Position numbers and translations under genes: made by a program | DNA from: a virus | Strand: one strand, 5' to 3' | DNA length: 23,791 nucleotides | Virus record (IMG/VR): IMGVR_UViG_3300013094_000277 | Span: 1-23,791 of that record | Part shown: positions 15,805 to 20,519 of the stretch, in pieces | Layout: each line of letters starts with the position of its first letter | How positions within the stretch are numbered: the first letter of the stretch is position 1 | The notes under the pieces: generated by a model | Databases searched by the model: none | The model's input: only the letters and a program-made list of their open reading frames with translations | Told to the model about the DNA's origin: nothing

Positions 15805-15831
15805 GCAGTAAACTACCAAATTAACAGCTTT

Positions 15832-15854
15832 CGCCAGCGTTGTAGGCGCCTTTT
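15832..15854 (+). terminator. Weak terminator-like stem after the GIY-YIG gene
   Basis: CGCC (15832-15835) can pair with GGCG (15845-15848) and is followed by CCTTTT. The stem is only four base pairs, so this is a low-confidence candidate for the end of the 55-47-46 transcript. Confidence 0.25.
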
Positions 15855-15902
15855 AACTGGACCACGGGTCGCAGGGCAAGGAATTTCTGACCGGTAGCAG
15901 AG

Positions 15903-15967
15903 TTATATTTCAGTATCCTTAACAGGACCCCGATGGAACGTGCCTATTGAATCCATTTGAAATATAA
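15903..15967. other. Long-range 10-bp inverted repeat
   Basis: TTATATTTCA at 15903-15912 is the exact reverse complement of 15958-15967. The 45 bases between are relatively GC-rich for this genome. The loop is too long and there is no T run, so it does not look like a terminator. Confidence 0.55.
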
Positions 15968-16161: not shown

Positions 16162-16187
16162 TGACTGAACAATCTAGATAATATCTT

Positions 16188-16202
16188 AAGTGCTTCGCAC
16201 TT
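16188..16202. other. Hairpin AAGTGC-TTC-GCACTT
   Basis: A perfect 6-bp stem with a three-base loop, lying inside a weaker outer stem (CTAGATAA near 16174 with TTATCAG near 16211). It is part of the run of hairpins between the converging operons. Confidence 0.4.
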
Positions 16203-16223
16203 GATTATGTTATCAGATAAGGA

Positions 16224-16268
16224 GAAAAGTTCGAGCGCAAGCGAAGAACAGAAGAACGCAGTTCTTCT
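16224..16268 (-). terminator. Tandem hairpins ending the gene 26 transcript
   Basis: On the minus strand, immediately after the stop codon at 16268-16270, AGAAGAAC and GTTCTTCT form an 8-bp hairpin with a three-base loop (16250-16268). A second, weaker hairpin GTTC...GAAC (16229-16249) follows, and then TTTTCTCC. The position right after the last codon and the short T run fit termination of the 26/frameshift operon. Confidence 0.5.
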
Positions 16269-16501
16269 TAGAGCAATGGCATTCGTGATTCTTTAGTAGC
16301 TTCAATATTCTCTTTGATAACTCGATAGATCATGGCACGATCATCAGCATCGTAGACATGCAGTAGTTCTTGAACTGACACACCACCACGCATGTACCAG
16401 CTTATTCTGAATAGCTCTTCTTTGAATTGTTTTACTTGATCATCTAGCCTAACTAGTGTGTCCTGAATTTCTTCCGTGGGTGTACTAATTAGGCTTTGGC
16501 G
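16268..16501 (-). CDS. Frameshift extension of gp26 (T4 gp51-like small chaperone domain)
   Basis: A 77-codon frame in the -1 register relative to gene 26, ending TAA at 16268-16270. It is closed upstream by stop codons at about 16513-16517 and has no ATG, GTG or TTG before the Met of WYMRGG, which lies inside the best-conserved-looking part. It therefore cannot be started normally except from an ATT. Its sequence has a helical EEIQDTLVRLDDQVKQF segment, then WYMRGGVSVQELL, then AMIYRVIKENIEATKESRMPLL. The WYMRGG...IKENIE.TKES.MP pattern is the small protein that follows gp26 in T4-like phages, which I link tentatively to gp51 and to the C-terminal parts of frameshifted tail chaperones. The expected product is gp26 residues 1-275 joined to these 77 residues, 352 in all. 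Confidence 0.8.
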   Translation of the reverse strand, partial: RQSLISTPTEEIQDTLVRLDDQVKQFKEELFRISWYMRGGVSVQELLHVYDADDRAMIYRVIKENIEATKESRMPLL

Positions 16502-16510
16502 AAAAAATTT
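16446..16510 (-). promoter_or_regulatory. Programmed -1 ribosomal frameshift signal
   Basis: Reading the minus strand in the gene 26 frame, AAT TTT TTC ends at 16501 and contains the slippery heptamer T TTT TTC (16507-16501), overlapped by A AAT TTT. After a five-base spacer, a stem forms between 16495-16484 (AGCCTAATTAGT) and 16457-16446 (ACTAGTTAGGCT): 12 base pairs with one G-U and a 26-base loop. The stem encloses the zero-frame stop TAA (16491-16489). Slip site, spacer and stem are in the standard order and distance for -1 frameshifting. Confidence 0.85.
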
Positions 16511-17325
16511 GAGTTATCAAACTCCACGGCGATTTCAGTAGCTGCTGAGCAATTTGAGCAGGTCACGGGCTGAGTGGGCACAGCAAATGCCTTGGTATTT
16601 TGTTCGGCTACTGCTTTGATTGCGTCAAACACTGTGGCATCGGCATTGTCTAGCCACTCTAGGATAAACTTCTGTTCGGTCACATTCATATTGCCAGTTT
16701 CTACACTTTCCACAGACATCTTGTAAATTTCATTCTGCATGTTGGCCAGTTCGGAGTAGAGCTGTTTTAGCTGTATGTCCTGCTCTTCTGTAAGTTCTTG
16801 ATTCTGTGATATTCGGATCAACTGTGCTGCCTGCTGCTGGATCTTGAAGCTTTTAATGGCAAGCTCACTGATCTGACGATAGTTAAGTGGTTTTAATTTG
16901 ACAGTTAACTGATCTAGATCCACGGTGTTGACATAGTTCTGACCAGCATAGTAGTCAATAATTTTGACCAAATCTAGTTCATATTCGTTTTCTGTAGAGC
17001 AGGCACTACAAGTGTGTGCTACAGTCATAGCACTGCCATAGGTGGCAATGCGTATAGCCACCAGCAAGAGATTGGTGTCAATAGTGCTGATGTCCCAACC
17101 GTCTTTGATACTAGGGCAACAGCTTTCCATGATCTTGACCACACTTTCACCGCTGAGCAGGGCATCTGGAGTTTTGGCCATGATTTCATCCATGCCAGTC
17201 ATACCGTAGATAGGCAGTTTATTCGCATCGCCCTGTATAGTACCGGGCTTGGTAAAGATGCCCTTGCTGGGCAATTTGATATAGATCTTTGGCTGTCTAA
17301 AATATTGTTGTAGTGGATTAGTCAT
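16489..17325 (-). CDS. 26: Baseplate hub assembly protein gp26-like / tail chaperone
   Basis: 278 residues against 208 in T4. The N-terminus has the family block QPKIYIKLPSKGIF, LPIYGMTGMDEIMAKTPDALLSGESVV, a Cys-Cys-Pro element and LLLVAIRIATYGSAM. Two Cys pairs, CSAC (106-109) and CSNC (256-259), would bind zinc together. Between them, about 145-215, is a helical, Gln/Glu-rich region. T4 gp26 is needed for hub assembly together with gp28 and gp51. The position next to, though divergent from, a tape-measure gene fits a tail-assembly chaperone. The final codons include the slip site of a likely -1 frameshift, after Phe275, so two products are expected: the 278-residue form and a 352-residue extended form. 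A perfect late promoter and a GGGAG ribosome site precede the start. Confidence 0.88.
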   Translation of the reverse strand: MTNPLQQYFRQPKIYIKLPSKGIFTKPGTIQGDANKLPIYGMTGMDEIMAKTPDALLSGESVVKIMESCCPSIKDGWDISTIDTNLLLVAIRIATYGSAMTVAHTCSACSTENEYELDLVKIIDYYAGQNYVNTVDLDQLTVKLKPLNYRQISELAIKSFKIQQQAAQLIRISQNQELTEEQDIQLKQLYSELANMQNEIYKMSVESVETGNMNVTEQKFILEWLDNADATVFDAIKAVAEQNTKAFAVPTQPVTCSNCSAATEIAVEFDNSNFFAKA

Positions 17326-18500: not shown

Positions 18501-20519
18501 ATGGCCGATCCAGGTTCAAGACCACTAACTGACGACGAAATGCGTCGACAAGCCGAGATAACGGCCAAAGTATTCAAAGCAAATGGTATTGGTTTAGGCG
18601 GTGCCGCTGGCGGAGGAGTCAATAGCTTTATCAGCGGTTTTGGGGGAGTAACTGCAAGTCTTGACTCTGCAGCAAAACCTTTAGAAATAGGTCTTAGAAC
18701 AGCCGGCGCCGGCGCCGCAGAAGCAGCTTTAGTGTTTAACGGCCTTAAAACTGCCATTCATGATAATTTAGGTACTTGGAGAGAACTCAGCAAAGCTGGC
18801 ATGAATTTTGACAATGATATTGTGTCAATGGCTACTGCTGCCGCAGCATCGAGACTTAGTCTTCAAGAATATGCAAGTTTAATAAAAGAAAACGGTGCCA
18901 GTCTTGCATTTTTAGGCGGCAGTGTTGCTGATGGTACTAAGGCATTTGCTAGACTAAGTGCCAGAATGTTTGATTTTGATAGTGCTACAGGTCTAGCAAC
19001 ACAAAAATTGCAAGAGATGGGATTTAGAAATGATGATCTAAATGAAATTCTTGCAGTAAGTTTAGCTATTAATAGATCATCCCTAGGTGAAGGACAAGCC
19101 GCTGACGATGCCGCTATTTCATCAGCACAACGTCTTGCACTTGAAATGGATAAGGTGGCTAAACTAACCGGACTAAGTCGTGAAAAGCAAGTAGAAGAAC
19201 TTAAAAAAGCAGAGTTAGATTCTCAGATACAAGCAAGATTTAAATTAATTGAGTTAACTGAAGGTAAAGACGCTGCCGACGCTGCTAGAGAACAATATAA
19301 GAAAAATATCTTAATTGCAGAAAGTCAAGGACCTGCTGTACTAACCGCCTATAAGGACATGGTTGCTAACAATGGCGCTGTAACTCTTAAAGAAAGTGCT
19401 CAGGCTATTACACTTTTAAATCAGCAAGGAGAGGGAGTACAAAATTTAGCCACAGCAACTCTTAAAGGCAATGCTGAACTAGGCGCCCAAGCTCAACGTC
19501 AGATGATTGAAGGTGCTAGACAAAATGATAGTAATATTGAAATATTGCAAGCTCGTACCTTAGGTAGTATTGCTAAAGTAAATGACACCTTTGCACCAAC
19601 CTTCCAAGCAACTAAGACAATAGTAGATAGCATGAATTCTATTGCTCAGGAAGCAAAATTTAAAGGCAAAAGCGAAGACGAAATTTATGCTGAGGCTGTG
19701 CGTAGAGCCAGTGTTAGAGAACCCACAGCGGGATCAGGAAGTACTGCGGCAATTATAGCTGTACAAAATAAGTACAACGACATACTTGCTACGGCTATGC
19801 GAGGAGTAGCAACACCTTTAAATGAAAAGATTGCGCCAACGTTATCTGCTATGGCTGACAAATATCTAGGCAGACGTACTCCCGCAGCAGACGCTAAACG
19901 AGATACAGAATCAACTGTTAGAGGAACACAAGGCAAAGGAACTAATGAGCCTGTACCTGGTGAAAGCACAGCCGATGCTGTTAAACGACAAATACAGGGC
20001 ATGCGATATACTAGTGCGACAGGCGACATACTGGGAGAAATTGGTAACAAAATTGGTCAGATTGCTAACATGACCGTGGGTACTGTAACTTCATTAACCA
20101 TTGACGGTAAAGGAATTAAAGGCGAAGCAGAAGGATCTAAAGATGTGTGGGGTTCATGGTTCGGAGGTCCTAGCGGTCTAGCCAATATTCGTGAGAATGG
20201 TCCTGAAGCTGTTGTACCGTTTGCCAAGATTAACGAATTTGTCAACGACATGCGGGGTAAAATACCCAGTGCTGGTCCAGATTTATCAGGAGTATCTAGT
20301 CAGCTTAGCCAATTATTACCGCAGGCTCAAGCAGCAATTCCTAATGTATCTAATGTGTTTTCTGGAAATCAAGGCGCAACCTTATCTGACGTGGTAGAGT
20401 CCCTAGATAAGTTAAATAAGTCTAACGGAATGATGATATCATATTTGGAAACTATTAGCAACTACAGTGGCAAGCAGGTAAAAGCTACTCGTGGTATGTC
20501 AAATAATAGATTCGATTGA
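18501..20519 (+). CDS. Probable tail tape-measure protein (gp29 counterpart)
   Basis: 672 residues, mostly Ala-rich helix. The N-terminal third is Gly/Ala-rich with hydrophobic stretches around 30-85. A long helical region (about 95-420) with many Glu, Lys and Gln follows. Near residues 558-575 is SGLANIRENGPEAVVPFAK, the 'GPEA(V/I)VP' motif common near the ends of tail tape-measure proteins. The last ~50 residues (LDKLNKSNGMMISYLETI) are the usual short terminal helix. T4 gp29, the ruler that fixes tail length and forms part of the hub, has 590 residues. Its neighbours agree: the gp26/frameshift chaperone lies upstream on the other strand and the portal downstream. The identity rests on composition, the GPEA motif and context, not on a full-length match to T4 gp29. 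Confidence 0.75.
   Translation: MADPGSRPLTDDEMRRQAEITAKVFKANGIGLGGAAGGGVNSFISGFGGVTASLDSAAKPLEIGLRTAGAGAAEAALVFNGLKTAIHDNLGTWRELSKAGMNFDNDIVSMATAAAASRLSLQEYASLIKENGASLAFLGGSVADGTKAFARLSARMFDFDSATGLATQKLQEMGFRNDDLNEILAVSLAINRSSLGEGQAADDAAISSAQRLALEMDKVAKLTGLSREKQVEELKKAELDSQIQARFKLIELTEGKDAADAAREQYKKNILIAESQGPAVLTAYKDMVANNGAVTLKESAQAITLLNQQGEGVQNLATATLKGNAELGAQAQRQMIEGARQNDSNIEILQARTLGSIAKVNDTFAPTFQATKTIVDSMNSIAQEAKFKGKSEDEIYAEAVRRASVREPTAGSGSTAAIIAVQNKYNDILATAMRGVATPLNEKIAPTLSAMADKYLGRRTPAADAKRDTESTVRGTQGKGTNEPVPGESTADAVKRQIQGMRYTSATGDILGEIGNKIGQIANMTVGTVTSLTIDGKGIKGEAEGSKDVWGSWFGGPSGLANIRENGPEAVVPFAKINEFVNDMRGKIPSAGPDLSGVSSQLSQLLPQAQAAIPNVSNVFSGNQGATLSDVVESLDKLNKSNGMMISYLETISNYSGKQVKATRGMSNNRFD

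Follow-up and report, generated by a model that had tools for sequence, protein, structure and literature searches.

Lambda gpG and gpG-T exemplify tail-assembly chaperones made in a short and a long form by a -1 frameshift at the 3' end of the chaperone gene; Atkins et al. (2016, PMC5009743) regard this frameshift as conserved widely, 'except T4'. The contractile-tailed phage P2 likewise produces a frameshifted tail chaperone as E and E+E' (PMC5009743). Among the T4-like phages, the work of Vladimirov, Gautam and Davidson (2022, Virology 566:9-15) is cited in a paper on frameshift prediction (PMC10885494) for phages in which the short form and the long fused form have a gene each, and in PMC12846349 for slippery poly-T sequences within T4-like TAC-N genes. 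The Pakpunavirus/Vandenendeviridae phage Adele, from a different phage family, has a comparable locus with a GTTTTT slippery motif, a -1 extension of >200 bp and a downstream piece that is routinely misannotated (PMC12846349). A review of T4 counts gp26 and gp51 among the chaperones of hub assembly and describes gp51 as needed yet absent from the particle (PMC3004832), and a 2010 review called gp51 essential and of unknown function. A direct search of the open-licence literature for gp26/gp51 or T4-like tail frameshifting returned no report and yielded the reviews PMC3004832 and PMC5009743.

The DNA analysed here (the window) is a 23,791-base fragment of an uncultured virus record, taken over its whole length. 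Its portal protein is 48-52% identical to the portals of Phosso, CBB, Atu_ph07, and other jumbo phages, and the window is a T4-like virus from an uncultured clade related to jumbo phages. Its gene 26 very probably encodes a tail-assembly chaperone expressed via a -1 frameshift, with gp26 as the short form and gp26-51 as the long form, in analogy to lambda G and G-T. The locus shares with T4-like gp26 (TAC-N) and gp51 (TAC-NC) the family PF12322, phrog_634 by way of the cyanophages, and the poly-T slippery sites attributed to T4-like groups in the citing literature; it differs from T4 itself, in which the short and long genes are separate, and from lambda in its protein family and slippery sequence. 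The T4-like chaperones of the 2022 study, represented here by the papers that cite it, differ from the window in that the window clade is uncultured and related to jumbo phages. Since a T4-like chaperone frameshift was published in 2022, the window is a good new example and not a new phenomenon, and the remark in the initial annotation that it was aware of no description of a T4-like gp26/gp51 frameshift was contradicted by the two papers citing that work (PMC10885494, PMC12846349). The extension to the window clade and to the jumbo phages named below, together with the covarying stem, may be new; what is added to the published core idea is the breadth, the covarying stem in the window clade, and a codon-level control.

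The slippery site and the -1 extension of gene 26

The features of the locus are as follows.

16489-17325, minus strand: gene 26, 278 aa, putative short chaperone form (TAC-N), assigned from the ORF, PF12322, phrog_150, and an AlphaFold2 model
16501-16507, minus strand: slippery heptamer T TTT TTC in zero-frame phase (X XXY YYZ), from reading of the sequence and 138/138 loci
16496-16500, minus strand: 5-nt spacer GCCAA, from reading of the sequence
16484-16495, minus strand: 5' arm of the putative stimulatory stem, AGCCTAATTAGT, enclosing the zero-frame stop TAA (16491-16489), from sequence, folding, and covariation
16446-16457, minus strand: 3' arm of the putative stimulatory stem, ACTAGTTAGGCT, from sequence, folding, and covariation
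16268-16501, minus strand: -1 frame extension, 77 codons plus stop (TAC-C, gp51-like), from the open frame, dN/dS, and hhalign to the cyanophage gp51 family

The zero-frame protein was assigned to PF12322 (T4_baseplate; E 5.9e-17, 62.5 bits versus a cut-off of 24.5 in a Pfam scan) and to phrog_150 (baseplate hub; E 3.1e-18 in PHROG), and its AlphaFold2 model (pLDDT 85.8) matched a T4-like baseplate hub assembly protein in BFVD (TM 0.83). A PDB fold search with the gp26 and gp51 models gave no match below E 0.4, which counts against the chaperone reading, and the gp26 homologue of phage CBB is annotated as a structural protein, which would fit a virion component better than a chaperone. The gp26 model also matched, more weakly (TM about 0.4-0.5), long and uncharacterised proteins from other large phages, among them Erwinia phage Special G and Ralstonia phage RSF1, and judging from these model comparisons the long proteins possibly contain a gp26-like domain. 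Four cysteines arranged in two C-x2-C pairs (C106, C109, C256, and C259) were invariant across 21 gp26 relatives, which suggests a zinc site.

Gene 26 ends on the minus strand with TCA AAT TTT TTC GCC AAA GCC TAA, and its zero-frame stop lies at 16491-16489; the slippery T TTT TTC ending at 16501 and the five-base spacer claimed from the sequence were exact. Alignment of the gene 26 ends of relatives, which had been proposed as a check, placed the heptamer in phase at every locus counted: an in-frame T TTT TT[C/T] 0-11 codons ahead of the stop, together with an open -1 frame, occurred in 138/138 loci (132 TTTTTTC and 6 TTTTTTT), a set that comprises the loci with a complete gene end, the window included, and that does not amount to 138 independent events because many are close relatives. 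The distant relative LR756511 has no slippery site at its frame end and was excluded from this count. An IMG/VR search identified 34 relatives with 42-100% identity, all of which carried the heptamer and open -1 frame where the end was complete. In tblastn comparisons TTTTTTC was also present in the jumbo phages RaK2, 121Q, GAP32, CBB, Munch, PA5oct, Atu_ph07, Phosso, SCTP-2, Vibrio 2.275, XbC2, XaC1, and Hallingskeid, and jumbo phage XacN1 has seven T's at the site; TTTTTTC or TTTTTTT was found in cyanophages, Methylophilales and Pelagibacter phages, KVP40, Aeh1, YB07, SRB7757, and Atu_ph04. Other Phe-Phe pairs within the same loci, used as a control, read NNT TTT TTY in only 3/29, 16/280, and 4/28 cases, and therefore the codon choice at the site has been held beyond the need for two Phe alone.

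The -1 frame stops at 16270-16268, so that the fusion comprises 275+77 = 352 aa, and the product lengths of 278 and 352 residues predicted by the initial annotation were both correct, as was its description of a start-less small frame open back into the gene 26 end in the -1 register. The median dN/dS of the -1 frame was 0.26 versus 0.28 for the core in the window clade and 0.18 versus 0.20 in the cyanophages; the extension is under purifying selection like the core and is real coding sequence. The window extension itself had no significant match in Pfam or PHROG. An annotation error appears to be widespread: many 'gp51' or hypothetical proteins entered without a start codon in cyanophage and jumbo-phage records most probably represent the C-terminal end of a frameshifted protein.

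The downstream RNA stem and alternative explanations

A stem of 12 pairs, one of them G-U, starts five bases past the heptamer, and the coordinates given for it around the zero-frame stop (16484-16495 with 16446-16457) were right. A folding energy of -18.1 kcal/mol was obtained for the 62 nt past the heptamer (z = -4.8, with 0/100 shuffles as stable). Across 21 distinct sequences of the window clade, 91.3% of cells were paired with both-sided changes at 5/12 pairs, and the covariation score was 0.269 versus 0.182 when shuffled (0/500); sliding the stem partner by 1-3 columns abolished pairing in this clade, and RNAalifold recovered the identical helix unaided. The clade member L028 is without the stem, folding gave no convincing comparable local stem in RaK2 and several cyanophages, and among other lineages P-SSM2 folds into a local stem and Melnitz into a long-range one. 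The stem thus differs or is missing elsewhere and is therefore a feature of the window clade and not of the whole family, so that conservation in relatives, which had been suggested as a check, holds by covariation within the clade and lapses in several cyanophages, RaK2, and L028. A single stem common to all lineages was rejected, as the others fold differently or not at all.

Alternatively, ribosomes that re-initiate past the gene 26 stop could translate the downstream frame as a gene in its own right, as its entry as a separate CDS in public records would imply. In KVP40 (L067:2513), YB07 (L072:3229), 121Q (L043:2328), Atu_ph04 (L069), and XbC2 (L048), the heptamer is accompanied by an ATG that overlaps the stop or immediately follows it, and an ATG overlaps the stop in Atu_ph07 and Phosso. 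This explanation is nonetheless improbable: the first 30 codons of the -1 frame hold no ATG, GTG, or TTG in the window and no start codon in 12 other members of its clade (13/22 in all) or in PA5oct, RaK2, and SRB7757, a Shine-Dalgarno-like start was found within those codons in 0/22 clade members, no stop interrupts the frame between the heptamer and the annotated starts, and the heptamer is retained even in the lineages with an ATG. Since the ATG coexists with the heptamer in KVP40, YB07, 121Q, Atu_ph04, and XbC2, its position indicates that these phages could make an additional free C-terminal product by re-initiation.

Realignment of RNA polymerase at the T run, yielding mixed mRNAs, would also join the two frames, and all members do have a run of six or more T. 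Six T is short for polymerase slippage, which counts against such an origin, and the run is nearly always ended by C in the X XXY YYZ phase and is followed in the window clade by a covarying RNA stem; transcriptional slippage is about as improbable as re-initiation. Homopolymers are prone to error, and a sequencing or assembly fault at the T run might have split one gene into two frames, an explanation with a negligible chance of being correct given that three separate metagenome records (L001-L003) have identical sequence and that the arrangement recurs in 138 loci, finished phage genomes included. The relatives thereby refute a T-run sequencing error as the cause.

The frameshifted chaperone is accordingly the preferred explanation. 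Three proposals of the initial annotation have support at the sequence level, namely frameshifting by -1, a fusion of gp26 with gp51, and the likeness to lambda G/G-T; at that level the heptamer, open -1 frame, selection, and covarying stem for a short and a long form are all present. Most ribosomes would halt at the gene 26 stop to give the 278-aa short form, and in a minority, with assistance from the stem further on, both Phe tRNAs would shift back by one base on U UUU UUC and re-pair. In the 352-aa long form made by the slipped ribosomes, the 77 added residues would be the counterpart of the T4 gp51 C-terminus. If the two forms act as lambda G and G-T do, the short one may cover the tape-measure protein while the long one may recruit tail-tube subunits (PMC5009743), and both chaperone forms would depart before tail completion.

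Relationship to T4 gp26 and gp51

T4 gp26 and T4 gp51 each match PF12322 over its full length and are therefore paralogues, so that the short and long forms of T4 are encoded by two genes. The abstract of the 2022 study is said to name genes 26 and 51 as those used by T4 and reportedly describes frameshifting as conserved in several T4-like groups. In hhalign comparisons the window-clade extension aligned with that of the cyanophage gp51 family at P 98.2 and E 3e-14. The cyanophage extension in turn aligned with the C-terminus of T4-type gp51 at E 1.6e-7, compared with 0.028 for the top scorer among 50 column shuffles; no other slice of gp51 matched it, and direct alignment of the window-clade or jumbo-phage extension with the T4 gp51 C-terminus was not significant. 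Homology of the window-clade extension to the T4 gp51 C-terminus is thus supported by profile alignment via the cyanophage family. Further, phrog_634 is common to the C-terminal part of T4 gp51 and the extensions of cyanophages, KVP40, and Aeh1, the KVP40 record itself likens its small gene to a 40-aa stretch at the T4 gp51 C-terminus, and the cyanophage 'gp51' (T4-GC_12) is the downstream portion of the -1 frame. These relationships tie T4 gp51 to the tail-assembly chaperone mechanism.

The end of T4 gene 26 (GAG TTC TTT GAG) retains the Phe pair with the slippery sequence gone, and its -1 frame runs straight into gene 25. In a midpoint-rooted tree with long branches and moderate support, T4-type gp26 and gp51 grouped together (91/84) beside KVP40 and Aeh1, among the frameshift lineages, a placement that fits duplication having replaced the frameshift in the T4 branch. 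A tentative wider scenario, which we hold as possible and somewhat short of probable, is that one frameshifted gp26-51 gene was ancestral to the T4-like supergroup including the jumbo phages, that the stimulatory RNA evolved per lineage, that the T4 branch swapped frameshifting for duplication, and that KVP40, 121Q, and Atu_ph04 may add a third, free C-terminal product. In one T4-like IMG/VR record (L065:2501-2860) the gp51 frame stops after 120 codons.

Genomic neighbourhood

The gene order in HTVC008M is tail tube, gp26, gp51, an ORF, and tape measure, and in that phage the neighbouring tape-measure gene is evident; for the window such a neighbour is a guess. The divergent neighbours of gene 26 in the window are ORFs that lack a family assignment, and the candidate is as follows.

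18501-20519, plus strand: 672-aa ORF, divergent, adjoining the portal gene; guessed from its position and GPEAVVPF motif to be a tape-measure protein

We take GPEAVVPF in this ORF to be a motif of tape-measure proteins, and with no database match to the ORF the label is a guess. The ORF gave no tblastn match among 50,697 phage records, and a search for the window's tape-measure gene by family search, comparison with CBB and RaK2, and tblastn gave no match.

Rfam family RF01718 (Polynucleobacter-1 RNA), named in a 2010 survey of candidate RNAs (PMC2864571), was identified at 15826-15967 of the window (plus strand, 78.1 bits), downstream of gp26 and on the opposite strand. It was present in 9/11 relatives tested (L001, L005, L007, L010, L012, L017, L020, L028, and L029), and this orphan RNA family is carried by T4-like phages related to the window. 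Hairpins occur just past the -1 stop (16186-16204 and around 16200-16270), one of them terminator-like on the plus strand, and terminator-like sites between 15800 and 17450 numbered 6 versus 1.1 expected.
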